In this document: in pieces, positions 3,464 to 46,032 of the stretch
Layout of the letters: each line of letters starts with the position of its first letter
Numbering within the stretch: position 1 is the stretch's first letter
DNA from: an uncultured Pirellulaceae bacterium
GTDB taxonomy: Bacteria > Planctomycetota > Planctomycetia > Pirellulales > Pirellulaceae
Assembly: GCA_938040995.1 (NCBI GenBank)
Contig: CALHZT010000017.1
Coordinates: 1 to 53,425, forward strand
Direction of reading: 5' to 3'
Length of the DNA: 53,425 nt
Position numbers and translations under genes: made by a program
Notes under the pieces: generated by a model
The model's input: the letters and a program-made list of their open reading frames with translations, nothing else
Databases searched by the model: none
What the model was told of the DNA's origin: nothing

Positions 3464-6400
3464 TTGATAGTTCGGTGCCTTGACGTAGCCCCTGGAATGC
3501 TTCTACTTGATAGCATGAACATTGCACTTCAGGACTGCAGCGCCCCATGGGTAACGGACGCACCGACACACCAGGCTACAGTACTAAAAGACCATTGGTT
3601 GCGTGCCGAGTGCACCGCGCTAACGTGGGCTCGTCAAGCCTTTCAAATTGGCAACGAGGAAATTGACGGGAACCACCTGACCGAACTGTCTTCCCACCTT
3701 CTACCGCTGGTGTTCGATACCGGGATTCATCAACGGCTGGCAAGTTTTGTAGAAGGTCAGGCTAAGCGAGCCACTCGTGGCGAGAAATTGCGTCAACGCG
3801 CGATGGATCAACTCTCGGGCATGATTCATGCCATTCTCGCAACAGCAGCGCTTCGCGGCGTTAAGCAAATTGAACCAACCACGGAAGAATTTGACAAAAG
3901 CTCAGCAGCCACAGCAACGCTCAATCTTGAATTTCGTGAACAGGCCAGACAATGCATCGACGCCTATCGACGAGCCTGGGGGCAACTTGACCAGACACCA
4001 TGGCAACCACGAAAGGGTTCCGGATTTCAATCGACTCAATCGAAAAGCCAGACTGACGAGTCAGTTGATACGGATCAAAAAGAAGTAACAGTTGGCGACT
4101 GGTGGCAGGACGCCGAATCGCAACTCACCGATCTTGACATCAGCAACAGTGATTATTTGGTCCTTCGACGTCTGGTGACTTACCTCCTTGGTCACAGCGA
4201 ACTCGACGAAAATAAACACCCTTTAAAAACCGTCCTTGTCGATATTTTTGACAAAGGACACGTTCGAGATGCGTGGATTGACGTGTCCCGGGAAACTCTA
4301 CTGTCAGCGTATATCGACCCTGTTTCGACGGGCCTGACAACCTTCGACGACAACTTGATCAACAGCCTGAAATGGGCGTGGAAGAACAGTTGTACGGAAT
4401 TGCAAACTCAGATTAGCAATGCAGACGACAAAATTTCAACAGCCGCCGTGGTTAGAGTTCGCATGCCGTCCACGGAGCTCTTTTTGCTGGAAGGTGACTC
4501 TGCCAGTGGGCTGCTGTCTTGCGGAATCCTGCTGGCCGCCAAAAAGAAACCAACCTGGATCGATCCCGATTTGACCATTTCGGCCGCCGTCGTGGACGTC
4601 GATGGAAACCTGGGGCCAGTCGGCGGAATAAAGCCCAAGATCGAAGCCTTCAGTGCCGCGGGTGGGCGTCGCATGGTGATTCATCCCGACAACTGGGAAG
4701 AAGCCGCACCAATTGCAAAGAAGTGCCATGTTCGGCTGCTGACGGCTACCGCGCTACAATCCGCACTTGCCCATTCAACCGAAGCCTCATGGAAGTATTA
4801 TGCAATCGAATCCTGGTGTATGCACACGGTTAAGAACTGGGATCGGCTTACCTCAACACCGCCCGAGGGTAACGATGATGATTCACGCTTGTACCATTAC
4901 GTGCCTCACCATTATTCGTGGTTAAAGGATGGATGTGAACCATCAGAATCGAGCGCACTGCCTGCCAAAAACAATCAATCTGGCGAACCGGAAAAAGCCG
5001 ACAACCACTTCCAACCTGTCGCTGCCCCGGACGACGATGAATCGGCAGAACTAACCAAACTGCTTCTGGAACATCGGTACGTCTGCCTGGCGGAGGACTC
5101 CGGAGCGGGCAAGTCGGTTTTCACACAACGAGTCCAGGCCTTTCTTTCCACCCCGGAAGTATGGCATACGTTTTTTGGCGGTCGCCCCGTACTGTCTTTG
5201 CGTTTCGAAGCTGGTCGTTCCGCCTGGCCTGCGGATTTTGCAAAAGGGGGATTGCAGCAGGCGATCGCCACCGAAATTGCACCATTCGTCGATGAAAGAA
5301 ATGTCGATGAACTGTCCAGCTGGATTTTGGAAACTGGCCGGGTGTGCCTGATTCTTGATGCTCTGGACCAACTGAGCAACGATGAACTGATTCAATCGCT
5401 CTGCGAATTTCTGGCAACCAATAAGAAAAATGCACACCCTTGCCGCGTCATTCTCACCGGACGCCTCAAGGCGATTCTGGAATCGAAACGACTGATGTCA
5501 GCCGCTCCCTGGAAACATGGACGGGTGGACGGATTCTCGATCCAACAGCAGTATGAACTTCTTAACCGGCGGCACCCGAAAATTCTTCCAGACATTGAAG
5601 ATCCCACGGAACCCGATGCCATTAGGTCGGCCTTTGAAGCCCATCTGGTGTCGAGTTACGACGACGCAGCAGACCTGCTGCAGGTTCCAGTTATCCTCAG
5701 CCTGATTCGCGAGCTTTATGCGGATCGTATCTGGCGAGGCAACCAGGGCAAGCTTCAGCCGTTTCGCAATCGGGCGGAACTCTACGTTCAGGTTCACGAA
5801 AAACTGCTGACATCTGCCTGGAGCAAGAACACTGGCACAGAACCGCCCGTCGAAAAGAGTATTCGTTGGGGGCAGATTCTGGGGGCAGTCAGCTATCAAA
5901 TGATGCTCGACAAGAACCTGGGGTACTCCGTCACGGGGAAACGTGCTGTTGGAAACTTGAAGATCAAAGTTAAAAAGCGCGTATCTCCGGAGATTACGGC
6001 CGAGGATTGGGAGGAGATTGAGCAACTCTCCCTGTGGACACGACGCAGCACCATCGAATCAGCTGGCGAGGATTCCTGGGGATTCAAACACCGGGGCATG
6101 ATGGAGTTTTATTGCGGTTTACACCTGGCGGCAAATTCGCAACCTGAATGGCGGCGGGTACAGACCGACGACGATGGTAAGGAGATTGATCTTCGTTGTG
6201 GCGATGCGGATTTGCCAGCGACGATTCACGACCGCGAATGGTATTGGCCTTGGCGTTTTGCCGCAGAAATGACCGATGAACAGATCATTGGAAGCGAACC
6301 CATCCTGGCGGCGTCAATGGCAGAGCTCTTCCACCATCGACACGACCAGCGTCGCCCCACCGAATTGATCTACCGCTTTTGGCATCGATTGGAGGTCGAT

Positions 6401-7321
6401 CTTTTTCTACTGCGTCAACTGGGTTTACGTCAGCCACAAGAGGGCTCGATCACGGACGAGATGCTGCTCGACGACGGTCGCAAACGCGTTCTTCCCGATG
6501 CCAGTCTGCTACTGTCGGTATTCCGGCAGGGTCATCTCGCCGATGGAACCAGGGTCCCGATCGACGACCATCCGGAGCTGAAAGAATTCAAAAACACATT
6601 TTGCCGCTGCCCGCCGGAGGGGAAGGAAATCGTTAGTTGGATGGGGGGAAAAGAAATCGAGACCCCTTACTTCGATGAGAAACCTCGCCACAAGGTAAGG
6701 TTACCTGCATTCGAACTATCGGATGCACCAGTCACGCGCGCTCTGTTTCGCAGTTTTGACCCTTCCTGGGAAATCAGATTCCTGGATTGGAGCGAATTCC
6801 CCAAATCGGACGACGGTCCCGCGAATTTCGTCAACTGGTATGATGCCTTTTGTTTCGCAAAGCTTCTTGGAGAACACTATGGCCTGCCGGATGAATGCCA
6901 ATGGGAAGCTGGCTGTCGGGCGGACACCGAATCCGCATACTGGTTTGGAGACAATTCGGAACTCCTTTCGAACCATGCCTGGACGGGATCCAACGCAAAA
7001 GGCCCTGAAAGCGTAAGAGCAAAGGAACATTTCAACGATTGGGGGCTGTCCGACATGCACGGTAACGTGTGGGAGTGGACATGGGATTGGTACTCGGAAG
7101 CCTGGTACCGAACTCAAACATCTAACATCGGCGACATTCGCGAAGAGGATAGCGGGCCCCCACGCGGCTCTTCTCGCGTTTGCCGGGGCGGGTCGTGGGC
7201 TGACCTCAATCCCAGGGTCTTGCGCTCCGGTTTCCGCAACTACGGCAGACCCGATGATCACTACGGCCTTGTTGGATTTCGAGTATGTCGTCGTTTCGTC
7301 GCGTGTCCCAATCGTCCTTAG
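3464..7321 (+). CDS. DGR target 1: Lon-like protease / NACHT-type NTPase / FGE-sulfatase (C-type lectin) protein
   Basis: A 1285-aa cytoplasmic multidomain protein. Residues about 1-300 are unassigned. Residues about 330-410 look like the Lon protease domain: Ser346 in EGDSASG and Lys390 in GGIKPK, 44 residues apart (Ser679 and Lys722 in E. coli Lon, 43 apart). Residues about 535-900 form a NACHT/STAND-like NTPase with Walker A GAGKS (Lys550) and Walker B LILDALDQ (Asp632). Residues about 1043-1285 are an FGE-sulfatase fold (GNVWEW, RGGSW, GFRVC). VR1 encodes the last 50 or so residues, just before the TAG. The start is a TTG at 3464; ATGs at 3497 and 3515 are alternatives. avd, TR and RT follow on the same strand. 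I infer a sensor whose diversified lectin-like end controls NTPase assembly and proteolysis. Confidence 0.85.
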   Translation: MIVRCLDVAPGMLLLDSMNIALQDCSAPWVTDAPTHQATVLKDHWLRAECTALTWARQAFQIGNEEIDGNHLTELSSHLLPLVFDTGIHQRLASFVEGQAKRATRGEKLRQRAMDQLSGMIHAILATAALRGVKQIEPTTEEFDKSSAATATLNLEFREQARQCIDAYRRAWGQLDQTPWQPRKGSGFQSTQSKSQTDESVDTDQKEVTVGDWWQDAESQLTDLDISNSDYLVLRRLVTYLLGHSELDENKHPLKTVLVDIFDKGHVRDAWIDVSRETLLSAYIDPVSTGLTTFDDNLINSLKWAWKNSCTELQTQISNADDKISTAAVVRVRMPSTELFLLEGDSASGLLSCGILLAAKKKPTWIDPDLTISAAVVDVDGNLGPVGGIKPKIEAFSAAGGRRMVIHPDNWEEAAPIAKKCHVRLLTATALQSALAHSTEASWKYYAIESWCMHTVKNWDRLTSTPPEGNDDDSRLYHYVPHHYSWLKDGCEPSESSALPAKNNQSGEPEKADNHFQPVAAPDDDESAELTKLLLEHRYVCLAEDSGAGKSVFTQRVQAFLSTPEVWHTFFGGRPVLSLRFEAGRSAWPADFAKGGLQQAIATEIAPFVDERNVDELSSWILETGRVCLILDALDQLSNDELIQSLCEFLATNKKNAHPCRVILTGRLKAILESKRLMSAAPWKHGRVDGFSIQQQYELLNRRHPKILPDIEDPTEPDAIRSAFEAHLVSSYDDAADLLQVPVILSLIRELYADRIWRGNQGKLQPFRNRAELYVQVHEKLLTSAWSKNTGTEPPVEKSIRWGQILGAVSYQMMLDKNLGYSVTGKRAVGNLKIKVKKRVSPEITAEDWEEIEQLSLWTRRSTIESAGEDSWGFKHRGMMEFYCGLHLAANSQPEWRRVQTDDDGKEIDLRCGDADLPATIHDREWYWPWRFAAEMTDEQIIGSEPILAASMAELFHHRHDQRRPTELIYRFWHRLEVDLFLLRQLGLRQPQEGSITDEMLLDDGRKRVLPDASLLLSVFRQGHLADGTRVPIDDHPELKEFKNTFCRCPPEGKEIVSWMGGKEIETPYFDEKPRHKVRLPAFELSDAPVTRALFRSFDPSWEIRFLDWSEFPKSDDGPANFVNWYDAFCFAKLLGEHYGLPDECQWEAGCRADTESAYWFGDNSELLSNHAWTGSNAKGPESVRAKEHFNDWGLSDMHGNVWEWTWDWYSEAWYRTQTSNIGDIREEDSGPPRGSSRVCRGGSWADLNPRVLRSGFRNYGRPDDHYGLVGFRVCRRFVACPNRP
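7162..7316 (+). repeat. DGR variable repeat VR1
   Basis: 155 bp aligned without gaps to the TR at 7761-7915. I count 16 substitutions in the variable core, every one at a TR adenine (for example AAC AAC AAT becomes GAC CTC AAT, and AAC AAC AAC becomes AAC TAC GGC). The only other difference is C to T near the 3' end (7312 versus TR 7911). The invariant GC-rich 3' part (about 7270-7316) would be the IMH. This is the signature of adenine-specific mutagenic retrohoming. Confidence 0.97.
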
Positions 7322-7365
7322 CACTCTGAGATCCTGCAATCTGATATCTGCCCCTCTGACCTCTG

Positions 7366-7384
7366 GCGAAGGCGCAGCCTTCGC
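7366..7384 (+). promoter_or_regulatory. Post-VR hairpin of VR1 (DGR target recognition element)
   Basis: Perfect 8-bp stem GCGAAGGC / GCCTTCGC with a 3-base GCA loop, 50 bp after the end of VR1 and 27 bp before avd. The same hairpin and its flanks recur after VR2 (14117-14135) and after the VR remnant (9226-9244). In the Bordetella phage DGR a hairpin downstream of the IMH promotes target recognition; the same role is inferred here. A transcription terminator is less likely, because no T-run follows directly. Confidence 0.75.
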
Positions 7385-7411
7385 GCAAAAATTTTCCTGG
7401 GAGATTGACAC

Positions 7412-7759
7412 ATGGCATCAGCCAATACACCCCTCTTTGTAAAAACGCATGATTTTACGGTGTGGATGTTCACCCATACGCAGCGATTCCCGAAAAACTT
7501 TCGTCAAAGTTATACCCTTCGCCTCGAAAACGCATGTCTGCAGTTCGAGGAAGATATTGTGATCGCCAATCAACTGCGAGCAGAACGGCGAATTGCCCAG
7601 TTGGAATTGGCAGATGCCCGTCTGGCCACACTGCGAAATTTGCTTCGTTACACGCTTGATTTCCGTCTACTGGGTAGTCGGCAATTCGAATTTGCTGCAA
7701 AATCTGTCGATGAGCTTGGGCGTCTATTGGGCGCGTGGCTCAAGGTGACGAACCGCTAA
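7412..7759 (+). CDS. avd: DGR accessory protein Avd
   Basis: A 115-aa helical protein matching the Avd family (four-helix bundle that pentamerises and binds the DGR reverse transcriptase and template RNA). Family hallmarks are the N-terminal PLFVKTHDF, a FPKN..R segment, the TLRNLLRYTLDFRLL helix, and the C-terminal VDELGRLLGAWLK. The ATG at 7412 has a GGGAG about eight bases upstream. It lies between target 1 and the TR, a standard DGR order, and the TR begins two bases after its TAA. Avd is basic and would hold the RT on the TR RNA during adenine-mutagenic cDNA synthesis. Confidence 0.92.
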   Translation: MASANTPLFVKTHDFTVWMFTHTQRFPKNFRQSYTLRLENACLQFEEDIVIANQLRAERRIAQLELADARLATLRNLLRYTLDFRLLGSRQFEFAAKSVDELGRLLGAWLKVTNR

Positions 7760-7760
7760 C

Positions 7761-7915
7761 ACGCGGCTCTTCTCGCGTTTGCCGGGGCGGGTCGTGGGCT
7801 AACAACAATCCCAGGAACTTACGCTCCGGTTACCGCAACAACAACAGACCCGATAATCACAACAACAATGTTGGATTTCGAGTATGTCGTCGTTTCGTCG
7901 CGTGTCCCAACCGTC
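7761..7915 (+). repeat. DGR template repeat TR
   Basis: The donor copy for both variable repeats. Read in the VR frame it encodes eleven AAC/AAT asparagine codons grouped as ANNNPRN, YRNNN and DNHNNN. AAY codons are typical of TRs, because mutating the first two positions samples many residues without making stop codons. It is not itself part of a credible gene: avd stops at 7759, and the open frame running through the TR has no start context and no homologue that I recognise. Homology to the VRs ends at about 7915. Confidence 0.97.
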
Positions 7916-8020
7916 ATCAACCCCGCCCGATGCTGTGGCCTACGACGTGTACACCCAGCCTGCGCCAAGAGGACGATACGGTTTGTTTCCAGAGTGGTGT
8001 AACGCCGCCAAAGCCGCGGA

Positions 8021-8065
8021 GCGGGGGATAACTTCATTCTGGAAGCTATCTCCCGCATTTTTTTT
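8021..8065 (+). terminator. Intrinsic-terminator-like hairpin between TR and RT
   Basis: The arms GCGGGGGATA (8021-8030) and TATCTCCCGC (8047-8056) pair with one mismatch. The loop adds a CTTC/GAAG pairing, and eight consecutive T residues follow (8058-8065). It could end the template RNA and so lower RT expression, or be a structural part of the DGR RNA. It ends just before the RT ribosome-binding site (AGGA, 8067-8070). Confidence 0.6.
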
Positions 8066-8078
8066 CAGGACCTGAACC

Positions 8079-9200
8079 ATTCCCCGACAATACGCACAAC
8101 TTTGGAGCAAGGTCCATCACTGGGACAATTTGTTGCTGGCCTATCGACGATGTCGTCGACGCAAGCGATGCAAATTTGCTGCTGCTGACTTCCACGAAAA
8201 CTGGGAATCCAACCTTATTGAAATCCAGCAGGCCCTCGAGTCCGGTGGCTATACACCGGGGAAATATCATCACTTCCAGGTTTTTGAGCCCAAGAAAAGA
8301 AAAATCAGTGCCGCGCCTTTTCTGGATCGCGTCGTACATCACGCCCTTGTAAACATCCTTGAGCCAGTTTTTGAGCGACGGTTCATTTTTGATAGTTATG
8401 CTTGCCGCCGTGGAAAAGGGACACATCGAGCCATATTGCGTGCCCAGTCATATATGCGGCAGCATCCCTTTTATTTGAAAACCGACATTGTGAAGTTTTT
8501 TCCCAATGTCGATCACAAAGTGCTGATGTCGGTTATTGGCAATACGGTATGTGATGAAAGCGTTCTGGCGCTCGTCAGGATTATCCTCAAAAGCGGTGTG
8601 GGCATTCATGACGACGTTGCGCCATGTCGGTTGTACCCCGGTGATGACCTTCTGTCGCTCACGCGACCTCGTGGATTACCGATTGGGAATCTCACCAGTC
8701 AGTTCTTCGCCAACGTCTTACTCGACCCAATCGATCATTTCATCAAGGAGCAACTTCGGGTCCCGGGCTACGTACGTTACGCAGACGACCTTCTGCTCTT
8801 TGGACCATCAAAATCATTTCTGTGGGACACCCACACGCAGCTTGTGGAAAAATTTGGCAATTTTCGATTGTCCCTACACCCAAACAAGACGGTCCTCAAC
8901 CCAACCTGGCGAAAAATGAACTACCTTGGGTTTTCTGTTTCTACAAACGGACGAAGGCTGACGCAAGACGCCCTCCGACGATGGAATCGGCGACTGCGAA
9001 AACAAAAGTGGCTCGCGAAGCGGGGCAAACTGGCGCCGCAAGATGTGTCACGGTCGCTGAACGCGTGGTCGGCTCACGCCGACTTTGCCAATACCATTGG
9101 TGTTCGCAAAGCACTGTTTCACCGAACGGCGGTTACGTACTGCGCCCCAGAACAAGGGACGATAGAGGCAAAGTCCCCGGATGATGATGTTAAAAGGTGA
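8079..9200 (+). CDS. DGR reverse transcriptase
   Basis: A 373-aa retroelement reverse transcriptase of the DGR clade. Visible motifs are FEPKKRKISAAPFLDRVVHH (finger region), KTDIVKFFPNVDH (motif with catalytic Asp), RGLPIGNLTSQFFAN (the DGR-type I/L-G-x-x-x-S-Q motif 4), YVRYADDLLLF (catalytic YADD) and NYLGF. I place the start at the ATT at 8079, eight bases after AGGA at 8067-8070, because it restores the conserved N-terminus QLWSKVHHWDNLLLAYRR. A TTG at 8130 would cut into it, and an in-frame TGA at 8073 limits extension. Together with Avd it copies the TR RNA into cDNA with errors at adenines, which then replaces VR1 and VR2. Confidence 0.93.
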   Translation: MPRQYAQLWSKVHHWDNLLLAYRRCRRRKRCKFAAADFHENWESNLIEIQQALESGGYTPGKYHHFQVFEPKKRKISAAPFLDRVVHHALVNILEPVFERRFIFDSYACRRGKGTHRAILRAQSYMRQHPFYLKTDIVKFFPNVDHKVLMSVIGNTVCDESVLALVRIILKSGVGIHDDVAPCRLYPGDDLLSLTRPRGLPIGNLTSQFFANVLLDPIDHFIKEQLRVPGYVRYADDLLLFGPSKSFLWDTHTQLVEKFGNFRLSLHPNKTVLNPTWRKMNYLGFSVSTNGRRLTQDALRRWNRRLRKQKWLAKRGKLAPQDVSRSLNAWSAHADFANTIGVRKALFHRTAVTYCAPEQGTIEAKSPDDDVKR

Positions 9201-9223
9201 TACTAAATCACGCCAAGTCTTTT

Positions 9224-9320
9224 GCGCGAAGGCTGCGCCTTCACCAGAGGTCAGATAACAGATTGCAGGATCTCAGAGTGCTAAGGACGATTGGGACACG
9301 CGACGAAACGACGACATACT
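9224..9320 (-). repeat. Truncated third VR end with post-VR hairpin
   Basis: Reading the minus strand, 9286-9320 equals the last 35 bp of the VRs and carries the VR-type T, not the TR-type C. It is followed by the same TAG stop and the same roughly 60-bp tail as VR1 and VR2, ending in the hairpin at 9226-9244 (one base in the stem is changed, GCCTTCAC). The variable core and any target gene upstream are gone, and homology stops at 9320. This is either the relic of a lost third target or a copied cassette. The rest of 9201-9400 shows no gene. Confidence 0.88.
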
Positions 9321-14092: not shown

Positions 14093-14116
14093 CCAAACGG
14101 TTTGCAAAATTTTTGC

Positions 14117-14135
14117 GCGAAGGCTGCGCCTTCGC
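14117..14135 (-). promoter_or_regulatory. Post-VR hairpin of VR2
   Basis: Same 8-bp stem and 3-base loop as after VR1 (GCGAAGGC / GCCTTCGC), 58 bp beyond the end of VR2 on the minus strand. The tail between VR2 and the hairpin matches the VR1 tail except for two base changes and an 8-bp insertion near the hairpin, so the spacing is 58 instead of 50 bp. Confidence 0.75.
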
Positions 14136-14187
14136 CAGAGAAACAGAGGTCAGAGCGGCAGATATCAGATTGCAGGACCTCAGAGTG

Positions 14188-17100
14188 CTAAGGACGATTG
14201 GGACACGCGACGAAACGACGACATACTCGAAATCCAACATCGCGGCTGAGATTATCGGGTCTGCGGTTGAAGCGGTAACCGGAGCGTAAGACCCTGGGAC
14301 TGAAGCGAGCCCACGACCCGCCCCGGCAAACGCGAGAAGAGCCGCGTAACGGGGCGATCACTTCGTGCCCGTATATCAACGTTCTGCTCCGTTCCCCAAC
14401 TTCCTCCTGGTTTTCTGTCCAGTCGTCGCGATACTCGCTCGACGTCCATTCCCACATATTGCCAATCGTATGCTGCAAATCGAAAGGATTCGCATATTTT
14501 TTATCGGGTGATTCGCTACGACCCAACGAACGGCTTGCGCTGTGGTGACACCGGTCTTCTTCCAGACCACCATTCCACCAACGCGGCCACGAGGTGCCAC
14601 CTCGGGTGAAGAATTCTCGCTCGCTTTCACTCGGCAAGCAATAGATAAAGTTTTCAGAACAATCACAACAGGCAAGCCAGATGCCAGAATAGAAATCCGC
14701 TGCGTGCCAGGTCACACGGTGAACTGGTTGGTCGTCGGAACGACTGCGCCCATCGCGGCTGAAGAAATGAGAAGGATCGAATAACTCGTACTCGGCATTC
14801 GATACACCAAATTTCATCACATCGAGTTTTGGCACCAGGACTAGACGGGCAGGCTTCTCGTCATCCCAAGCTTCATGGTCCGAATCGTCGGACCCCATCC
14901 GGTAAACCCAACCTTCATGGCCCTCAGGAGCGGGAAACAGGTTGTCTGCCGATGCCATGTCAAACTCCGGCGAAGGGCAGGGCAGAAACAACTGCAGGAG
15001 GTTGCCGAACACGTCAAGCTCCGAAGCGCCAAGTTCACCAATAAAACCAGCGCCGAGCGATTGCTGCGCACTCTCCGGCAGCAAGTCCCAGGCGGAACGT
15101 ACCGTCTGGCTGTCTCGATAGCGACGATCAAGGTGTGAACCCAAAACACGGACGAATTCTTCGGCGTTATCGTTTTCGGGCCTCTCCGTTGCTCCCATTC
15201 CTTTATACCGCAAGTCGTCTCGTACCAGCCACCGACAGACATCTACCCACGGGCAGGGGACGGTTGCACCAGTCGTATCATCGGTTTGCCCAAAATGGTC
15301 TTCTCGTATCGCGTCCGCCAAAGTGAACGTGCCACCATAGGCGATCAGCTCGGCAGCAAGACGGTCCCTTTTTTCAACTGCCTTGGTTAGTTTTGTGCCA
15401 CTCGCTTTCTTTGTCAGTTCTTTCTTTGCGAATTCACTTCGCACCGCCGCATCCAGTCGTGACAACGCAAAGCGAAAGACCCAACGCCATTGTTCGCGAG
15501 GCGATTTTGAAATCTCGTGGGTTGCTTCAGGATCGTCCCACGCATGGCCTTCGCGGGCACGAGTTCGCGCTGCGACCATGTCCAGAATCCCACTCAGTTC
15601 GAAGCGCAATTCGTCCGGAGAAAGATAATCCGCCAGCCAGACGCCCGCAAAATATTCCGCGAAAGAGAGGTGACGCCATTGAAGGGAATCATTCTCCTCT
15701 TCCAAAGGGCCGCCGAGCAGGACGCCATTCTGTTTGAGCGTCTCTGCCATTTCTGTGGGGGCATTTCTTTCGTGGAGATACTCACTCAGGATTTCTAACG
15801 TATCGTCATACTGGTCACCTTCTACAAAACCTTCAAATCCGACATTTCGCAGCATATGCCACGCTACAAAGGCGTGAGCTTTCGTCAGCTTTCTCAGATT
15901 GGTCAGCGAGCCCCGACTCTCGCGTGGCACTGAATCCAGGCCCTTGCTCAGAAGACTGTAACTTTTGTTTGACTCGATCGCCTGGTAATACACCCGCTCC
16001 CGGTTATAGAGTGAATCGATCTCATCTTCGGGAATGCTCTGGAGCAAGTGCAGCACCATTGGCACCCGAAAAAACTCGTTTTCGACGCTGTTGCCATCCT
16101 CGATGCCCAATAACTTGCGGAAATGTTCGGCCTTTTCTTTCGTCAGAAACTCATTGACTTGATCGTCGGTCAACAATCCCACCTGACGCTCGTCCCAGGC
16201 TGAGAAACTCGACCGTGAACTCTGGCGGCCAGTAAAGTAGATCGGGCATTGGTCCACATTGCCGTGGCCCTCGAACCACAGCTGAATTTGATCGACTTGC
16301 CCACCGGCTTGATCGTGGGCGTCCAGCAGGTAAACCGCTTTGCCGTTGTCGTGGAGGTATTGCAACCAGTCTTGGACATGTTTCTTTTTGGAGCTGTCCA
16401 GGTGCTTACCGAACTCACTGGCAAGGTTGTTTCTGAATTTCTCGCTATCGTCCCAGGGGCGGCTTGCCAATTTGTCGCGGCGAATTGGCAAGAGGCCAAA
16501 TTTCCCTTCGGCGATTTGCTGTTCGAGGTAAATCAAGAGTGTCGATTTTCCCACTCCGGAATCGGCATAGAGAAATAACCTCGCTGGGCCATCGCCGGGC
16601 CCATGGAATCGTCCCTCGTTGATTTGGCAAAGTTCGTCATCAGAAATGGGAATCCACTTTTCCTGCTCCGATTGCGACGGTTCAACGTCGCCTTTCGCCC
16701 GATCTGGACCCTCTTGTTTAGACTTCAGGATGGGTGACGGAATATAACGCGATTCCGTCGCCGCATTGCATGTTTTGAGCAACGTCTGCCGCGCTTCCTC
16801 AGCCAGCCTCTCGTTGACCTGGGCCGTCATGGCCTCGAATAGCGAAAGCTCTTTGTAGGCATCTTCGAAGTCATCAACCGGCACCAGGCGAACTGTTCCA
16901 AGTTTGTCATCTGGCGTGTCACGTGGTTGCTTCGAGTGGATTGCAATCCGATTTACCGACTTGACCCGTGCAGCTGTCGCCAAGCCACGAATCTCGTCAG
17001 CTAAACACTTCTTGTTTATCTCGCCGACATGATCGATATGAAACGAGGCGGAACGTGGTGTCGCGAATTGAGCAGTTACGGCTGCATTACTGTCCAGCTG

Positions 17101-17994
17101 TTGATTCTGCCGTAGTGCCCGAAGTGCGCACGCTACTGCGACTTCGCCTGATCTTCCGTCCAAAGTCCTGTCTAACAATTTGCCGGTATTTGCATCCTTC
17201 ACTTCAACCCACCATCGAATGTCAAAATCGATACCCTTCGTTTGAAACTGGGGTCGTGTTAGATCGTAACCGATGGCGGCCCACCAGCCATTTTGCAATC
17301 CCTCCTGAAATTTACGCGTCACCTTCTGGCGGAATCCATTCCATGGATGAGGATAAAATGCTCCGATGCCCTGGTCGATTTTCTCCAGATACAACCGGGC
17401 GACGAATCCGAGCGGTTCGTCCTGCTTTGGATTTCTGGTGGCCGACAGTATGTAAGATTGAACTCTGGCTGCAACTTTTTTGGACAAAGTGTCTTCGTAG
17501 AGTACGCCTTGCCACCAGTCGGCGAGGATGCACACATAGGGATTCCAGTAGCCACCTGGTGCGGCATCGGCCAACTTGTTGAACAGATCAATTTGCCACT
17601 GTTCGGTATCAGAAAAAGGCATTGAGTTGATCGCCGCAGACCTCTGGTAGTTTTCGGCGTTTTCGAATCGATGCCCTTCGCTCTCGTTAAAAAACCACTG
17701 AAAATTTGCACGTGCGCTGATCGCGGAATACAGTTTCTCCAGTTGCTCTTCCCCAAGGGCTCCGTGCGGTGGACTAAGAGCGAACTTGCCGAATTGCGTG
17801 AGCAAATCGACCCGTTCGTCGCTGTCGCATATTTCTTGCCAAGAGGGCGAGGACAGTTTGGACAGCAGCCTCGCTCGAGGATCGCTGTTGTCTCGTTGGA
17901 GTTCCGAACGTGCGTTTCGCAGGGAAGAGAAAAGTTGATTTTCGTCCGAAGCAATAAACTCACTCGCAGACGATATCGATTCAATGGAAGTCAT
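14188..17994 (-). CDS. DGR target 2: Lon-like domain / NACHT-type NTPase / FGE-sulfatase protein
   Basis: 1268 aa from the ATG at 17994 (GAGAAG just upstream; a TTG three codons earlier is possible). Same plan as target 1 with strongly diverged sequence. Residues 1-265 are unassigned. Residues about 265-350 are Lon-like, with Ser282 in DGRSGEV; the position of the catalytic Lys reads VGEINKK, with Asn327 where Lys is expected and Lys328/329 next to it, so activity is uncertain. The NTPase has Walker A DSGVGKST (Lys483) and Walker B YLLDAHDQ. The FGE-like domain occupies about 1035-1268 (GNMWEW, RGGSW, GFRVC) and VR2 encodes the last 50 or so residues. It lies on the opposite strand to the DGR, 5 kb beyond the RT, so it is diversified in trans. 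A sigma/HTH-type gene lies directly upstream. Confidence 0.85.
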   Translation of the reverse strand: MTSIESISSASEFIASDENQLFSSLRNARSELQRDNSDPRARLLSKLSSPSWQEICDSDERVDLLTQFGKFALSPPHGALGEEQLEKLYSAISARANFQWFFNESEGHRFENAENYQRSAAINSMPFSDTEQWQIDLFNKLADAAPGGYWNPYVCILADWWQGVLYEDTLSKKVAARVQSYILSATRNPKQDEPLGFVARLYLEKIDQGIGAFYPHPWNGFRQKVTRKFQEGLQNGWWAAIGYDLTRPQFQTKGIDFDIRWWVEVKDANTGKLLDRTLDGRSGEVAVACALRALRQNQQLDSNAAVTAQFATPRSASFHIDHVGEINKKCLADEIRGLATAARVKSVNRIAIHSKQPRDTPDDKLGTVRLVPVDDFEDAYKELSLFEAMTAQVNERLAEEARQTLLKTCNAATESRYIPSPILKSKQEGPDRAKGDVEPSQSEQEKWIPISDDELCQINEGRFHGPGDGPARLFLYADSGVGKSTLLIYLEQQIAEGKFGLLPIRRDKLASRPWDDSEKFRNNLASEFGKHLDSSKKKHVQDWLQYLHDNGKAVYLLDAHDQAGGQVDQIQLWFEGHGNVDQCPIYFTGRQSSRSSFSAWDERQVGLLTDDQVNEFLTKEKAEHFRKLLGIEDGNSVENEFFRVPMVLHLLQSIPEDEIDSLYNRERVYYQAIESNKSYSLLSKGLDSVPRESRGSLTNLRKLTKAHAFVAWHMLRNVGFEGFVEGDQYDDTLEILSEYLHERNAPTEMAETLKQNGVLLGGPLEEENDSLQWRHLSFAEYFAGVWLADYLSPDELRFELSGILDMVAARTRAREGHAWDDPEATHEISKSPREQWRWVFRFALSRLDAAVRSEFAKKELTKKASGTKLTKAVEKRDRLAAELIAYGGTFTLADAIREDHFGQTDDTTGATVPCPWVDVCRWLVRDDLRYKGMGATERPENDNAEEFVRVLGSHLDRRYRDSQTVRSAWDLLPESAQQSLGAGFIGELGASELDVFGNLLQLFLPCPSPEFDMASADNLFPAPEGHEGWVYRMGSDDSDHEAWDDEKPARLVLVPKLDVMKFGVSNAEYELFDPSHFFSRDGRSRSDDQPVHRVTWHAADFYSGIWLACCDCSENFIYCLPSESEREFFTRGGTSWPRWWNGGLEEDRCHHSASRSLGRSESPDKKYANPFDLQHTIGNMWEWTSSEYRDDWTENQEEVGERSRTLIYGHEVIAPLRGSSRVCRGGSWARFSPRVLRSGYRFNRRPDNLSRDVGFRVCRRFVACPNRP
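14193..14347 (-). repeat. DGR variable repeat VR2
   Basis: 155 bp aligned without gaps to the TR. I count 16 substitutions, all at TR adenines (for example AAC AAC AAT becomes CGC TTC AGT, and AAC AAC AAT becomes AGC CGC GAT). It carries the same single 3' T as VR1. The bases outside TR adenines are unchanged, although the host gene is otherwise very different from target 1. This points to recent overwriting by the same TR. Confidence 0.97.
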
Positions 17995-18005
17995 GCTTCT
18001 CAAAA

Positions 18006-18086: not shown

Positions 18087-19625
18087 CTAAGCATTGGGAT
18101 CGGCGGCTTTCAACAGTTTTTGCACGTTCCTGACCCCGGTGCTCAGTCTATCGGCAATCTCGGCGGTGGAAAGTCCATCTTCTGTTAGCCTCAAGACTTG
18201 ACGCTGCCGTTTAGTCAGTCGGTTCCTGTGTTCCTCGTGTTGTCGCGCCTGGATTTTCTTCTGTCGCGCCTGAATTTCTTTTTCTTCCTGCACCATGAGA
18301 GGGTGCGGCGGCTCATCGTACGCAGGCGAGACAGTTTGTAAACCGACTTTTTCAAGCTTGGCATTCTCTGGGAAATGGAAGATGACTTCTTTGCGAAATC
18401 TCTTTGAGCCATTCAGGTAAGGAGTGCCATGGATCCAGCTATGCTGGTCGTAGTCGCAACCTGTGATCCTGGTTATTGCCTCGATGATCGTCTCATTCAA
18501 TATGTCTTCTTCGTTTGATTTGCCGTGCTTGTTCCTGGCTCGACGGCGAATCGAAGGACTTACATCCTCAGTGAACGCGGCCCACGCCCCCTTGTCACCG
18601 TTGTGCAAGCTCTCGAGCTGTGCGTGCAATTCAGGGTTGGTCACTCCCCATTGTTCTCTTTTCCCAAGCGCGACAACCCAGACGTTTGCATTCCCCTGGT
18701 CTTGTAGTATCAAAGGCTGGATAGGCGATGCAGAGGTCGAACACTGATTGAAGTAGCTTCTGGCAATGTCTCGATCCGCAACATCAAGCAGGTGAAGATC
18801 GCCTGGCGATGCCCGGCGGACTCTGAACCTGGCTGAGGAAAAGTCGCGGGCAATTAGATCAAAGGCAGGGTCCAAGTGACCTTGCAGATAGGTGCCGTCA
18901 CGAGTCAGTTGCACAATTGTGCGAACAGGGGAGAAGTCTTCTTCGTTGATAGGAATAATCTCTACAAGCGCTAGCGCATCATCTTCCTGTTCACGGGGAC
19001 TGAGGTCGCTTACCTCAAGACGATTCTTCTTCGTGAAGTAGACCACGTCTAACTTGTCATAAGTAGTCCATTGTTGCGGAGGAATTTTCTCTTCATCATG
19101 GCCAGAACAAGCCAATGAATACGATTCTTCATCAGCGTCGATATTCTCGAGAGTCTGATGCCTGAAAACACTCCGAGAGACCCGAACTTCGTGGGCATCC
19201 TCAGCGACACCTGGAAATTCGAAGCGATATGCATGGATAACGACAACGGAGAGGCCATCTGGCGTTCCCGACGGGAAATTGAATCCATGGGATTCGCGAA
19301 GGAGTTCGATCGTTTCCGTTCGCTCATTTCCGTTTTCGAGCCACCTTAATTCTGCCGGCGCAACGGGCAAATCTTGCTGCGAGGTTTTTAGCGAAATGGT
19401 GCAGACACGGTAGTTCTGACGGTCACCAAGAATTTCCATCGCAGTGGCAGTTGTCGATTGAGCAGTTGTCGCGGGCAGGGAGGGTTTTATTCCCATTTTG
19501 CGTGACAGTTCTACTAACCGCTCTGCCATCGAGGAATCGAGTGCCGCATCGATCTCCATCAGCTTCTGTAATTTAAGTTCGCCCCGAAGGTAATCGCGTA
19601 ACGTGGAATCGCTGTGCTTGCTCAT
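18087..19625 (-). CDS. Sigma/LuxR-type HTH regulator with large N-terminal region
   Basis: 512 aa. The start at 19625 follows GGGAGA by five bases; the ATG at 19649 has no site. The last 45 residues (LTKRQRQVLRLTEDGLST, then AEIADRLSTGVRNVQKLL) form a region-4/LuxR-like helix-turn-helix. About 110 residues before it, a helical segment (LESLHNGDKGAWAAF, then NEEDILNETIIEAITRI) resembles sigma region 2 of ECF factors. Residues 1-60 recall the short helical start of anti-sigma or sigma-linked proteins, and about 60-330 are beta-rich and unassigned. A plausible transcription regulator of the island, lying just upstream of target 2 on the same strand with an inverted repeat between them. Confidence 0.65.
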   Translation of the reverse strand: MSKHSDSTLRDYLRGELKLQKLMEIDAALDSSMAERLVELSRKMGIKPSLPATTAQSTTATAMEILGDRQNYRVCTISLKTSQQDLPVAPAELRWLENGNERTETIELLRESHGFNFPSGTPDGLSVVVIHAYRFEFPGVAEDAHEVRVSRSVFRHQTLENIDADEESYSLACSGHDEEKIPPQQWTTYDKLDVVYFTKKNRLEVSDLSPREQEDDALALVEIIPINEEDFSPVRTIVQLTRDGTYLQGHLDPAFDLIARDFSSARFRVRRASPGDLHLLDVADRDIARSYFNQCSTSASPIQPLILQDQGNANVWVVALGKREQWGVTNPELHAQLESLHNGDKGAWAAFTEDVSPSIRRRARNKHGKSNEEDILNETIIEAITRITGCDYDQHSWIHGTPYLNGSKRFRKEVIFHFPENAKLEKVGLQTVSPAYDEPPHPLMVQEEKEIQARQKKIQARQHEEHRNRLTKRQRQVLRLTEDGLSTAEIADRLSTGVRNVQKLLKAADPNA

Positions 19626-19767
19626 GTCAGTCTCCCGGTTAGTAGTCATTGTTGATGAAGAATCTCAGCTATATCTACAAGCCGGATAGTTGCTCGTGGC
19701 GCACTCCGATTGTCGTATTTCAAAAGAAAAACGTCCAATTCGATGTAAGCTATTATTTGCCAATTAC

Positions 19768-21066
19768 TTAGGGGCGACAGAATCGACATCCCTCGCCGTC
19801 GATCCACTCTACGGTGTCAAAATGGGGGCTTTGGCCCGATGGCCAGCTCAACTTTGTCCAGACGCTGGTTCGGAGTGAACCACCCAGCAAATCTAACCAA
19901 TGCTGAATCGCCGTGTTCACGATCATGCCGTTAAGCGTTACCAAGGATCCTCGTCGCTGTTCATTCCATGTTCGTCGTTGCCCGCGACTCATCGCCCCAA
20001 CTGGTGCCGAATATTCATAAAGTGCCTGGGATTGGTCATCAACGCCACCGATGCAGCAGACGCAGCCGTCGCCGGGGACGATCAATCGAATGTCACCGAT
20101 CAACCTCGTCGCATTGCCCTGCTCGACCAGGTCGGTGGCCACGTCGAGATGGACCATGTTCCGGCCAACCGCGACCTGGCTGACCGCGAACCGCGCCGCA
20201 TCGTTGTCCACGCATGTTACCAGTAGGTCCGATCGACGCTGCAGGATTTCGAGGCTGTCCTGGGTCGTTCGCTCGATCTGCGATATCAGGATGTTGGGGC
20301 GAAACGCTCGCAGCCGCTCGGCAACCGCGAGCGTTTTGAGCTTGCCGACGGAATCCGCCGACAGCCCCGGCATCGCATCCAGGTTGTGTGGCAAGAGAAT
20401 ATCATTATCGATCAGCCGCAGGTGAGCGACGCCGAGAGCCGCGAAATTCGATGCCATGACCGAACCGTTGCGGCCTAACCCAACAATGGTGACCGTCGCC
20501 GATTGAAGCTGACGTGTTACCCTCGCACCGAGGGCACCCACCAGTCGGCTGTACCGATTGTTATCATCGTTCGTTACATCGACGGCCGATTCAGCAGGAC
20601 TGCCCTCAACAGGTTGAAGAGAGTACATTCCCGATCCGATGATATCCAGCCCACCCATTGGCTGAACCGACCCGTCCTGAAACAACTCAACCTGGCAAGA
20701 TTCCATTCGCCTCGGATCAAGCAACACCACGGCCACGACCTGGGATGGCCGTGGCCTGAGTCGCTGCCACGTTTCTTCAAGTCGAAGGTCCTCGCCACAC
20801 CGGATGACGATCCACCGCGTGTAAGGGTGCGCCATCTGAAAATCGGGCAGCCGTTCGATGCCAACGTCGCTGACAAGGAATTCGCAACGGTTGCGATCTT
20901 TCCACGGTCGGAGCTTTCCTACAGCAGCAATTTCGTGTTCGGGACTGCCGGGAATCGGTAACAGGAGACCACGGCAGGCGGTTTCCCAGTGGCGTCGTGG
21001 GAGGATGATGCGCCATTTCTGGTCGGAAGGGCGAAATGTTGATTGGTTAGTCATGTCTGTCGTCAT
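19768..21066 (-). CDS. ThiF/E1-like adenylyltransferase, possibly with degenerate JAB-like N-terminus
   Basis: About 432 aa if MTTDMTNQ is the start (21066); ATGs at 21054 and 21087 are equally possible. The C-terminal two thirds are an E1/ThiF Rossmann domain: VTIVGLGRNGSVMASNFA (nucleotide-binding glycines), LRLIDNDILLPHNLDA, GKLKTLA, LVTCVDND. Cys pairs CVCC near 345 and CRFC at the end would bind zinc. The N-terminal 160 residues could be a JAB/MPN-like domain, but no metal-binding His-x-His was seen. E1-like proteins activate ubiquitin-like or sulfur-carrier proteins. No such carrier with a C-terminal GG is evident nearby. Confidence 0.75.
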   Translation of the reverse strand: MTTDMTNQSTFRPSDQKWRIILPRRHWETACRGLLLPIPGSPEHEIAAVGKLRPWKDRNRCEFLVSDVGIERLPDFQMAHPYTRWIVIRCGEDLRLEETWQRLRPRPSQVVAVVLLDPRRMESCQVELFQDGSVQPMGGLDIIGSGMYSLQPVEGSPAESAVDVTNDDNNRYSRLVGALGARVTRQLQSATVTIVGLGRNGSVMASNFAALGVAHLRLIDNDILLPHNLDAMPGLSADSVGKLKTLAVAERLRAFRPNILISQIERTTQDSLEILQRRSDLLVTCVDNDAARFAVSQVAVGRNMVHLDVATDLVEQGNATRLIGDIRLIVPGDGCVCCIGGVDDQSQALYEYSAPVGAMSRGQRRTWNEQRRGSLVTLNGMIVNTAIQHWLDLLGGSLRTSVWTKLSWPSGQSPHFDTVEWIDGEGCRFCRP

Positions 21067-21214
21067 TCGTGCTTTGTATGCAAGCATTGTGAGGTGTCGC
21101 AGTATTTTTGGAATGCCAGCGGCGGCGAGCACCGTGCCCGTTTGGTATCCAGGAAAGGCAAGGCACCTCGCGACAGGATTTCGCCGCAAGGTGCTCACGC
21201 CAGACATCAAAGGT

Positions 21215-21421
21215 CTAGTCCTTGAGTGCCCTTTGCATTGCTTCAAACTCCTGCTGTTGCCGTAAATCACGAGCGACCTGTTCGCGATGGCGAATTTCGC
21301 GGATATCGTCCGCGAAACCATCGGCCGTCATCACCGATTCGGATCGGACCGTGTTTTGCCCGGCAACGGGTTGGGAGTTCGTTAAATGCCTGAGGGCTGC
21401 CTTTGGTTCCACAGTTTCCAT
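21215..21421 (-). CDS. Small charged protein (unknown)
   Basis: 68 aa, beginning METVEPKAALRHL, with AAGGAG five bases before the ATG at 21421, one of the clearest ribosome-binding sites in the island. The C-terminal half (DDIREIRHREQVARDLRQQ) is a charged helix. The end is ALKD with no di-glycine, so it does not look like a classic ubiquitin-like carrier. It lies 148 bp upstream of the E1-like gene on the same strand and may be its partner. Confidence 0.65.
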   Translation of the reverse strand: METVEPKAALRHLTNSQPVAGQNTVRSESVMTADGFADDIREIRHREQVARDLRQQQEFEAMQRALKD

Positions 21422-22285: not shown

Positions 22286-22791
22286 TCAAACGACTCGTAA
22301 TCGCTCTTTGTTCAGTCGCTGGACGATAAATTCCATCGCCAATCCGGCACCACGTTGCACGTACGGTTTTCGCCGGCCAAACAACCCTTTCACTGCCGTT
22401 GTATCGCTCTCGAACGGGACGCCAGTCGCATTCAGCTTCATGCGCAATCGGTCGACGGCATTGAACACGTGCCAGTCATCAGGGTCACAACAGAAGAATT
22501 GATGCCGTGGCCAGTTCAGCGGATGGATATGCAGCAGCGCCGTATCCTGGCGGGCCCGTTCGACTTCTTCGTACATCGCGTAGAGGACCTCATCACCATC
22601 AAGGATATGCCGTTGGTAATCGAGATCAGGATTAATTGCCGCCACCACCGGAAACAGGTTGGGATGCTTGTACGAGATTCGCAACGCACCCTGACCACCC
22701 ATCCCAACACCAAGCAGGCCAAGTCGCGGGGCCTCTGTTCCGACAACCCTACCAGCTGCCTGCCCAAAGACTGCGCTGCTTTCATTGAATT
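22286..22791. repeat. 506-bp direct repeat flanking the island (right copy; left copy 1931-2436)
   Basis: The two copies lie in the same orientation exactly 20355 bp apart, without indels and with 9 mismatches (98.2% identity). All 9 mismatches are silent in the hydrolase-fold reading frame. The left boundary coincides with the stop codon (TCA AACGAC on the plus strand) and the right boundary lies inside the gene, after TTCATTGAATT. The region between them holds the DGR system. Confidence 0.93.
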
Positions 22792-23119
22792 CCGCAGCAA
22801 TCCATGGTGCCACATGCTGGCAGACGAATTGCTCCGGCGTGACAACCTCATCAAATCCGGAAGCGATTCGGTCGGCCCACCAACTGTGACCAGTCAACGG
22901 TGCGATGACCGTGAGACCATGGCTCTCAAACGACTTTTCAAAAATGGGTTGGGTGAACTCGTCGCCGAACCCGGCGAATGCGGCGTTCGATTTTGCCGGG
23001 GACGAATTCGCGACGAAGAGGTCGTGCAGCGCAACGACGACGAACCCGTGCTCATTCGGCTGGCGGGGCAAAAACACGCGGCATGCGTGATCGCCAAGTT
23101 GATGAAGACTCCAACCCAT
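22286..23119 (-). CDS. Alpha/beta-hydrolase-fold (esterase D-like) protein, probably catalytically impaired
   Basis: 277 aa resembling the esterase/S-formylglutathione hydrolase family: VVVALHDLF, the elbow region LGVGMGGQGALR, and NPDLDYQR. The elbow normally reads G-x-S-x-G, as in GHSMGGHGAL, but here it is GVGMGG, with Gly in the place of the nucleophile Ser, and I find no clear catalytic His near the C-terminus. It may be a non-enzymatic relative or use other residues. The last 168 codons lie in the 506-bp direct repeat whose other copy is at 1931-2436. It is divergent from hpt. Confidence 0.75.
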   Translation of the reverse strand: MGWSLHQLGDHACRVFLPRQPNEHGFVVVALHDLFVANSSPAKSNAAFAGFGDEFTQPIFEKSFESHGLTVIAPLTGHSWWADRIASGFDEVVTPEQFVCQHVAPWIAAEFNESSAVFGQAAGRVVGTEAPRLGLLGVGMGGQGALRISYKHPNLFPVVAAINPDLDYQRHILDGDEVLYAMYEEVERARQDTALLHIHPLNWPRHQFFCCDPDDWHVFNAVDRLRMKLNATGVPFESDTTAVKGLFGRRKPYVQRGAGLAMEFIVQRLNKERLRVV

Positions 23120-44373: not shown

Positions 44374-46032
44374 ATGCAATCACCTTCCAAGGCCATCATC
44401 AGCGCCCTGCTGACACTCATTCTGTCACACGTTGCGCTTGCGCAATCGGGAACCGTTCAATGGGACGATGATCCTGCCCCTGGCAACGACATCGTGATCA
44501 CTGACGACGTGGATTCCCCGAACGCCCCTGAGTTTTCCGGTGACTGGGAGATCCCGGTAGAATCCGGGGTAGTTCCTGATCAGCCAGAAATCGTGGTTCA
44601 AACAATACCACCTGCTGCCGGTCCGTTCCCCGAAAGCCTGCAAACCATCGAGCCGATCGAGGATGGTTCCGTCGGTTCGCCGGAGCAGATCATCAATGAA
44701 TCATCGCCCGCTGAGGCGCCCGTTATAGATCTCGCAGAATGGGAAACCCGATTAGGCGCAGTCGAAGGCAAACTGGAAGAACGACTTCAACAGCTGGAGC
44801 TGGACCGCGCGGAGATAGAGAAGAAAGCGGCACCCAAAAAGTCTTTTCCGACGGGTAAATGGACGGGGCGAATTCAACTGGACTACTGGGCATTTCCAAA
44901 CGAGTCGGATGGAATCGGGTTCTTCGAAAATCCGAACACCGGGTTTGATCCGGAAAACCGACTTGTCTTTCGCCGTGTTCGCCTCGGACTACAAGGCGAC
45001 ATTAACGACTCGATGCTGTACAAGATCGACTGGGAATTCAACAATCCGGCCGTCGGCGAATATAAAGATGTATATATCGGCTGGAAGAACTTGCCGCACA
45101 ATCAGCAGCTGCTAATCGGTCATCAAAAGCGGCCCCTTGGTCTCGATCACCTCAACAGCAGTAACTACAACACCTTCCTCGAACGCCCGATGGTGATCGA
45201 AACATTCAACTCGATCAACCGTCGAATTGGAGCGGCTGTCTACGGGCATACGGACGACGAGGTTTACCACTGGCGATACGGCATCTATACACTCGAAGAT
45301 ACCACGCGGGATGGACGCCACATCGGCGACACGTTTCAGCCGAGTATTAACGGACGGATTTCCGCAAGCCCCTGGTATGACGATGCTACCGATGGGCGCG
45401 GCTATTTCCACTGGGCGCTCGCCGGGATGTTCGCGTGGCCCGATGGAGATGGCGGAAACGAAACGAGTACGAATGAGGGCCGTTTTCGGACCCGAGCCGA
45501 AAACAGGTCGGCAACAAACTGGTTCGACACAGGCCGAATTGCGGATATCGACAATTACAGCATCGTCGCTGTCGAGACGATGTTGAATTTTGGTCGCTTT
45601 CATCTCGTCGGGGAATTTCAGACGGCACATGCAGAGCGACTGACGGGAAACAACCTCTTTTTCTACGGAGGCTATGTCAGTGTTTCCTGGTTCCTGACGG
45701 GAGAGCACATTCCACTGAATCGCAAGCGAGGCATCATCGGCCGCATCAAACCGTTCAACAATTTCACGCCGGCAAGTTCGCGTGGCAGCAGGGCGACTGG
45801 AATGGGAGCCTGGCAAATTGCGGCAAGATATTCCTTCCTCGACATCAGCGACGACGACATTACCGGCGGAGTCGGCGATACCATTACTGCAGCGCTGAAC
45901 TGGTATTGGTCGTCGCGATCGCGAATGCAGTTCGACTATACCTATGGCGACATCGCGGATCGCACCGAAGTGGCCGGTTTTACTGGCGGAACTTACGGTT
46001 CGCTCGGCGTGCGATTCTCGATGGATTTCTGA
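44374..46032 (+). CDS. OprO/OprP-type outer-membrane porin (paralogue 1)
   Basis: 552 aa from the ATG at 44374. It has a signal peptide (SALLTLILSHVALAQ, cleavage near residue 23), an acidic linker, and a short coiled-coil (EERLQQLELDRAEIEKK, about 145-165). The beta-barrel domain comes next: IQLDYWAFPNE, FRRVRLGLQGD, GHQKRPLGLDHLNSSNYNTF, and a C-terminus ending LGVRFSMDF with a terminal Phe, as outer-membrane proteins need for barrel assembly. The family forms trimeric channels for phosphate, polyphosphate or other anions. It converges on a paralogue, with 35 bp between the genes. Confidence 0.88.
   Translation: MQSPSKAIISALLTLILSHVALAQSGTVQWDDDPAPGNDIVITDDVDSPNAPEFSGDWEIPVESGVVPDQPEIVVQTIPPAAGPFPESLQTIEPIEDGSVGSPEQIINESSPAEAPVIDLAEWETRLGAVEGKLEERLQQLELDRAEIEKKAAPKKSFPTGKWTGRIQLDYWAFPNESDGIGFFENPNTGFDPENRLVFRRVRLGLQGDINDSMLYKIDWEFNNPAVGEYKDVYIGWKNLPHNQQLLIGHQKRPLGLDHLNSSNYNTFLERPMVIETFNSINRRIGAAVYGHTDDEVYHWRYGIYTLEDTTRDGRHIGDTFQPSINGRISASPWYDDATDGRGYFHWALAGMFAWPDGDGGNETSTNEGRFRTRAENRSATNWFDTGRIADIDNYSIVAVETMLNFGRFHLVGEFQTAHAERLTGNNLFFYGGYVSVSWFLTGEHIPLNRKRGIIGRIKPFNNFTPASSRGSRATGMGAWQIAARYSFLDISDDDITGGVGDTITAALNWYWSSRSRMQFDYTYGDIADRTEVAGFTGGTYGSLGVRFSMDF

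Follow-up and report, generated by a model that had tools for sequence, protein, structure and literature searches.

The window, as we call the whole stretch of DNA analysed here, is contig C17 (53,425 bases) of a planctomycete draft genome (5.66 Mb, 86.5% complete), and it carries an intact two-target chromosomal diversity-generating retroelement (DGR) built of genuine parts. An accessory variability determinant gene (avd), a template repeat (TR) and a reverse transcriptase (RT) gene lie together, and two target genes, T1 and T2, each end in a variable repeat (VR1 and VR2) that matches the TR. The parts, the adenine-specific changes of the VRs, the domain plan of the targets and the 3' tails that the targets share are direct observations, and the features of the locus are as follows.

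3464-7321, plus strand: T1, 1285 amino acids, with a Lon-protease-like domain, a STAND-type NTPase and a C-terminal FGE/C-type-lectin domain
7162-7316, plus strand: VR1, the 3' end of T1
7317-7395, plus strand: 3' target tail of VR1 with stop codon, spacer and hairpin (7366-7384), not present in the TR
7412-7759, plus strand: avd
7761-7915, plus strand: TR, whose version of the initiation of mutagenic homing (IMH) site, IMH*, has a C at 7911
8130-9200, plus strand: DGR reverse transcriptase (YADD, LPIGNLTSQ)
9220-9320, minus strand: orphan target tail with 35 bp of VR 3' end, stop codon, spacer and hairpin
14106-14192, minus strand: 3' target tail of VR2, with a hairpin (14117-14135) identical to that of VR1
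14188-18003, minus strand: T2, 1271 amino acids, with a Lon-protease-fold N-terminus, a STAND NTPase and a C-terminal FGE/C-type-lectin domain
14193-14347, minus strand: VR2, the 3' end of T2
19768-21321, minus strand: ThiF/E1-like protein near the targets, a possible partner gene of uncertain membership

Template, variable repeats and reverse transcriptase

The alignment of the TR with both VRs spans 155 bp and has no gaps. Relative to the TR, each VR shows 17 differences, 16 of which are at TR adenines (8 A>G, 6 A>T and 2 A>C in VR1; 7 A>G, 6 A>T and 3 A>C in VR2), and with 35 adenines in a 155-base TR the hypergeometric probability of at least 16 of 17 differences falling on adenines is 2.5e-11 per VR. 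The one remaining change, C>T, is identical in both VRs (TR 7911, VR1 7312, VR2 14197) and sits in the IMH-like 3' end, five bases from the end, where it is the expected kind of difference between IMH and IMH*. Apart from this site there are no non-A differences over approximately 238 sites (119 non-A sites per VR), so the last rewriting was recent on the scale of neutral drift. A sequence-only reading of the window had proposed a complete DGR with one TR and two targets, and this is borne out: avd, TR, RT and both VRs could all be located, the coding parts are open, avd, TR and RT are contiguous, and the VRs lie 7.0 kb apart with VR1 on the plus and VR2 on the minus strand. Its count of 16 adenine-only substitutions per VR is also correct, substitutions being far from equally frequent at non-adenine columns, while its statement that the core holds no other change is off by one owing to the shared C>T.

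The constant parts of the VRs are 100% identical in DNA sequence between T1 and T2, whereas immediately 5' of base 7162 the identity of the two genes is at chance level (approximately 27% ungapped; 55% when aligned, against 51% for shuffles). The 5' edge of homology between the targets thus coincides exactly with the 5' edge of the TR, which fits repeated copying-in of the TR. Ten sites are mutated in VR1 as well as in VR2, and five of them carry the same base, with approximately four expected from base frequencies, so there is no sign that one VR was copied from the other, and the pattern is consistent with independent rewriting. Given the sharp 5' edge, the A-only changes and the different alleles, the VR bodies are best explained by repeated copying from one TR. 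The mutable stretch covers 17 TR codons, equivalent to approximately 10^16 possible protein variants, and a stop codon can be reached from only one of them. No further VR was found in the 86.5%-complete draft genome, the sole extra match being part of the orphan tail (9286-9320); a search for close strains gave no exact backbone match in IMG/VR, and the genus holds one genome.

The RT is of the DGR type, as the sequence-only reading had it: its best PDB match is the RT of the BPP-1 DGR in the RT-Avd complex (8ub7, 1.4e-44), its YADD motif is located at residue 217, and its motif 4, LPIGNLTSQ, has SQ and not SP. Its nearest named relatives are from Planctomycetota. The avd product falls just under the cutoff of 80 bits for the NCBIfam model DivGenRetAVD (79.1 bits, 2.6e-22) and lies above the cutoff of 40 bits for Pfam bAvd (54 bits). 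Another RT in the genome, on contig C87, was considered as a second DGR and rejected, as it is of the group II intron type (QGGPLSP) and no repeat was present within the fetched 3.8 kb.

Target proteins and their 3' tails

The VR-bearing domains of both targets belong to the FGE family PF03781 (3.3e-35 for T1, 9.1e-23 for T2), and the closest solved structure to both is Treponema TvpA (2y3c; 4.7e-15 for T1). A predicted structure of the FGE domain had a predicted local distance difference test score (pLDDT) of 43 and was set aside. In T1, the N-terminus matches the Lon protease domain 1z0e by sequence (5.9e-4) and has Ser346 and Lys390 in the motifs GDSASG and GGIKPK, candidates for the Ser/Lys dyad of Lon-type (S16) proteases, and the central region gives a weak NPHP3_N match (0.0046) and aligns with targets of relatives that score as NACHT. 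The central region of T2 matches AAA_22 (3.7e-4) and contains the motif DSGVGKS. Domain searches gave no family match for the N-terminus of T2, and its structural model matches Lon proteolytic domains (E of approximately 2e-5, probability 1.00, template modelling score 0.67 normalised to 3wu6_A), with the serine, S285, conserved in four aligned homologues. Neither target gave a match to a surface or secretion domain in these searches.

At the protein level T1 and T2 are 38% identical over the FGE domain and 22% over the STAND region, and since they share the same plan we regard them as distant paralogues in plan and not as unrelated genes. The host genes had been described as otherwise very different, which is true of their DNA sequence and not of their architecture, as both combine Lon-like, STAND and FGE parts. 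Adjoining T2 is a gene (18087-19649) for a 520-amino-acid protein with a C-terminal sigma-70 region 4/LuxR-type helix-turn-helix, a possible regulator.

The identity between the targets extends approximately 80 bp beyond the 3' end of the TR, through stop codon, spacer and hairpin, at 78-96%. The hairpin behind each VR, GCGAAGGC-GCA-GCCTTCGC, has a perfect 8-bp stem and a GNA-type triloop, and in its perfect form is found nowhere in the genome outside this DGR. This shared flank, which like the orphan tail goes unmentioned in the sequence-only reading, cannot derive from the TR, because the TR lacks it. The earlier proposal that the identical backbones reflect overwriting by the TR is thus upheld for the VR bodies, with their 5' edge and A-only changes, and does not extend to the flank. 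The latter has the look of a target tag that was acquired or kept separately from the VR. Behind the RT gene, the orphan tail carries a VR-type IMH and a hairpin with one mismatch in its stem, and no FGE reading frame lies upstream of it. The tail has three copies in the genome, all at this locus, which rules out a genome-wide repeat of the repetitive extragenic palindromic (REP) or miniature inverted-repeat transposable element (MITE) kind; an intrinsic terminator was likewise rejected, given that a terminator scan found none at the tail hairpin.

The orphan tail and the VR2 tail (14111-14227) form direct repeats that bound 4.9 kb with two plus-strand genes, one encoding a 961-amino-acid protein without a family match and the other an alpha/beta hydrolase. 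This arrangement suggests either that the body of a target gene was lost or that the two plus-strand genes were inserted. A broader idea, which we put forward tentatively and lean against, is that a portable 3' tag, mostly outside the TR, makes a gene a DGR target. Such a tag would comprise the final 35 bp of the VR, including the IMH, together with the stop codon, the spacer and the GNA-triloop hairpin; it would move between different gene bodies and could persist alone, as in the orphan behind the RT gene. Two-target DGRs would then result from transfer of the tag and subsequent overwriting by the TR, which here would have placed two Lon-protease-STAND-lectin sensors under one template.

Related loci and published systems

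At E <= 1e-40, the RT has homologues in 23 of 397 genomes sampled from the order and in 35 of 392 sampled from the phylum, with the genome of the window itself counted. A scan of 55 short RT loci, many of them truncated by contig ends, gave TR/VR pairs with mainly adenine changes in 34. In seven other loci of the phylum a single TR serves two VRs (L045, L046, L072, L099, L102, L107 and L109), and in L072 and L102 these lie on opposite strands, as here. Action in trans on the opposite strand, which the sequence-only reading had singled out, is therefore not in itself remarkable, given that published surveys also report multi-VR and remote-target DGRs: multi-VR DGRs make up 28.6% of one published set, mostly with one TR (PMC6642488), and remote targets and trans activity are described for cyanobacteria and Thiohalocapsa (PMC7517822, PMC10907252).

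We compared the tails in detail in six of the two-target loci (L099, L102, L109, L107, L046 and L072). In L099, L102 and L109 the two targets agree at 80-91% of the 45 bp that follow the VR (shuffles 51-55%). Over the 150 bp preceding it, identity is close to background for L099 and L102 (54-57%) and somewhat higher for L109 (63%). L107 gave a mixed result, and no clear tail was seen in the 45-bp comparison for L046 and L072, the latter still having a local match of 54-64 bp. The shared tail thus appears to be a common and not a universal pattern, present in at least three of six two-target relatives; its conservation by functional constraint and by tag transfer are both possible. In L099, L102 and L107 both VRs share one TR-to-VR change at the 3' end, comparable to the IMH change here, and GNA triloop hairpins occur with the loop GAA in L093 and L099, GCA in L026, GGA in L046 and, on the other strand, GAA in L019. 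Near the start of L046 (30-51) a further exact match of 20-21 bp to the VR ends possibly marks a third target cut by the locus edge.

Five relatives (L093, L094, L019, L102 and L107) combine the same TR/VR pattern and NACHT+FGE targets with different TR sequences. Among them, L093 and L094 (RT 57-58% identical) and L019 (54%) have the same VR-avd-TR-RT order and a triloop hairpin, and L102 has two targets with the second VR inverted. L093 and L094 are two DGRs of one genome, and their similarity to T1 begins only past its Lon-like part. In that genome (G697, a single contig of 7.77 Mb) they have identical TRs (L093:9313-9462, L094:9211-9360) and different NACHT-FGE targets and are separated by approximately 7 Mb of the contig, or by 0.8 Mb should the contig be circular, so that cross-talk between the loci is possible. 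L107 has two targets, the second of them Lon-like and with a broken frame, and also a ThiF gene: a 36% identical homologue of the window's ThiF/E1-like protein (L107:11040-12281) lies inside this two-target locus, and the second target (L107:14871-19297; Lon-like, NACHT, FGE) is split over frames, which may reflect a decaying target or assembly errors.

Among described systems the closest by target architecture are the STAND-C-type-lectin (STAND-CLec) DGRs, in which targets consist of an N-terminal effector or adaptor, a central STAND NTPase and a C-terminal FGE/CLec domain with the VR. Thiohalocapsa PB-PSB1 DGR 6 and the clade 5D DGRs are examples; two STAND-CLec targets are common in clade 5D, and a peptidase forms the N-terminus of some of these (Dore et al. 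2024, PMC10907252). STAND-FGS conflict-system proteins encoded with DGRs are described as well, often as two copies whose N-terminal effectors differ (Kaur et al. 2021, PMC8195603). The gain of targets by duplication and recombination of CLec ends has also been proposed (PMC10907252). As multi-VR, remote-target and STAND-FGS DGRs are already published, the locus is not of a new kind and belongs with the two-target STAND-CLec DGRs, from which it differs in the Lon-protease-like N-termini of both targets and in a second target that is inverted and lies approximately 5 kb from the RT. Less usual here are these N-termini, the GNA triloop and the orphan tail; in its main text the STAND-FGS survey names caspase and trypsin peptidases, and neither the word 'Lon' nor a Lon-like effector class occurs there (PMC8195603).

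With the BPP-1 DGR the locus shares homologous RT and Avd, the VR-avd-TR-RT order, A-specific changes, IMH/IMH* and an 8-bp hairpin 3' of the VR. It differs in being chromosomal, in having two targets, which are STAND proteins instead of a tail fibre, and in its GNA triloop and longer VR-to-hairpin spacing. TvpA is the variable protein of a Treponema DGR. The T. denticola TvpA DGR resembles the locus in its FGE/CLec variable domain (2y3c), and the solved TvpA, at 294 amino acids, is too short to hold STAND and protease domains like those of T1 and T2. The locus extends the known set by a complete chromosomal DGR of Planctomycetota whose two targets resemble NLR-type immune receptors with Lon-like protease ends. 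Its shared and orphan tails offer a testable idea of DGR target gain and loss, by comparing tails rather than whole genes, and it is suited to asking if two sensors diversify jointly or each on its own.

Proposed role and surrounding region

We consider it very probable that the locus is a BPP-1-type chromosomal DGR that rewrites two tail-recognised targets, most likely to vary the recognition surface of invader sensors. RT and Avd would copy the TR RNA, with adenines misread, and the mutated cDNA would replace the VR at the 3' end of either target gene, each target being recognised through its own tail of IMH, stop, spacer and DNA hairpin. Rewriting falls on the C-type-lectin/FGE domain in both targets, NLR-like proteins with a Lon-like protease, a STAND NTPase and a lectin-like sensor, so the most likely role would be to vary the recognition surface of sensors that respond to invaders by activating a protease effector. 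Retrohoming, misincorporation, sensing and protease action are steps that we infer. Several observations weigh against parts of this explanation. The loop is a GCA triloop and the hairpin lies 49 bp (VR1) or 57 bp (VR2) from the VR end as aligned, whereas the BPP-1-like phage hairpin has a 4-nt GRNA loop 4-34 bp from the VR (PMC3240598). In T2 the model of the N-terminus has a mean pLDDT of 61, and the usual position of the catalytic Lon lysine is N, in GEINKK, so the T2 protease may be inactive. The putative defence role is read from domain architecture, and the evidence comes from one consensus genome; the earlier wording 'apparently active' is therefore better put as 'apparently intact and recently used'.

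The last point bears on the alternative that the DGR is intact and dormant, with VRs rewritten in the past and now fixed. Signs of decay around the locus are present in the orphan tail, with its damaged hairpin stem and missing gene body, while all coding parts are open and the non-A sites outside the IMH are clean, so that any dormancy would have to be recent; we judge dormancy unlikely, with a real chance of being right. Far less probable is that the VRs resemble each other through duplication or recombination of one target's 3' end into the other. The 78-96% identity of the flank outside the TR and the third copy in the orphan would fit such an event, but a 5' homology edge at the TR edge and A-only differences from the TR with different alleles in the two VRs would not, and duplication could account for the arrival of the tail and not for the present VR sequences. 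Instead of sensing invaders, the variable FGE domains might also have a part in signalling or adhesion, as is the case for other CLec DGR targets. TvpA, the nearest solved structure to both VR domains and itself a DGR target, is not known as a defence protein. The STAND NTPase and peptidase-like N-terminus nevertheless match the NLR-like STAND-FGS/DGR plan (PMC8195603, PMC10907252), and with neither surface nor secretion domain among the domain matches we hold an adhesion or signalling role to be about as improbable as dormancy.

Around the locus, the 3' part of an esterase gene occurs twice as a direct repeat of 506 bp (1931-2436 and 22286-22791, 98% identical). The repeat, whose homology begins at the esterase stop codon, bounds a 20-kb stretch with the DGR and both targets, resembling an insertion that regenerated a gene end. 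The full esterase copy is on the right (22286-23119), where the esterase-glycosyltransferase neighbourhood is kept in several relatives. The stretch between the repeats is a possible, unproven genomic island, because the left flank gene was not found near the esterase of relatives and no integrase was recognised between the repeats. Further along the window, an inverted repeat of approximately 250 bp (45691-45937 and 46166-46412, 69% identical) surrounds the junction of two convergent genes.

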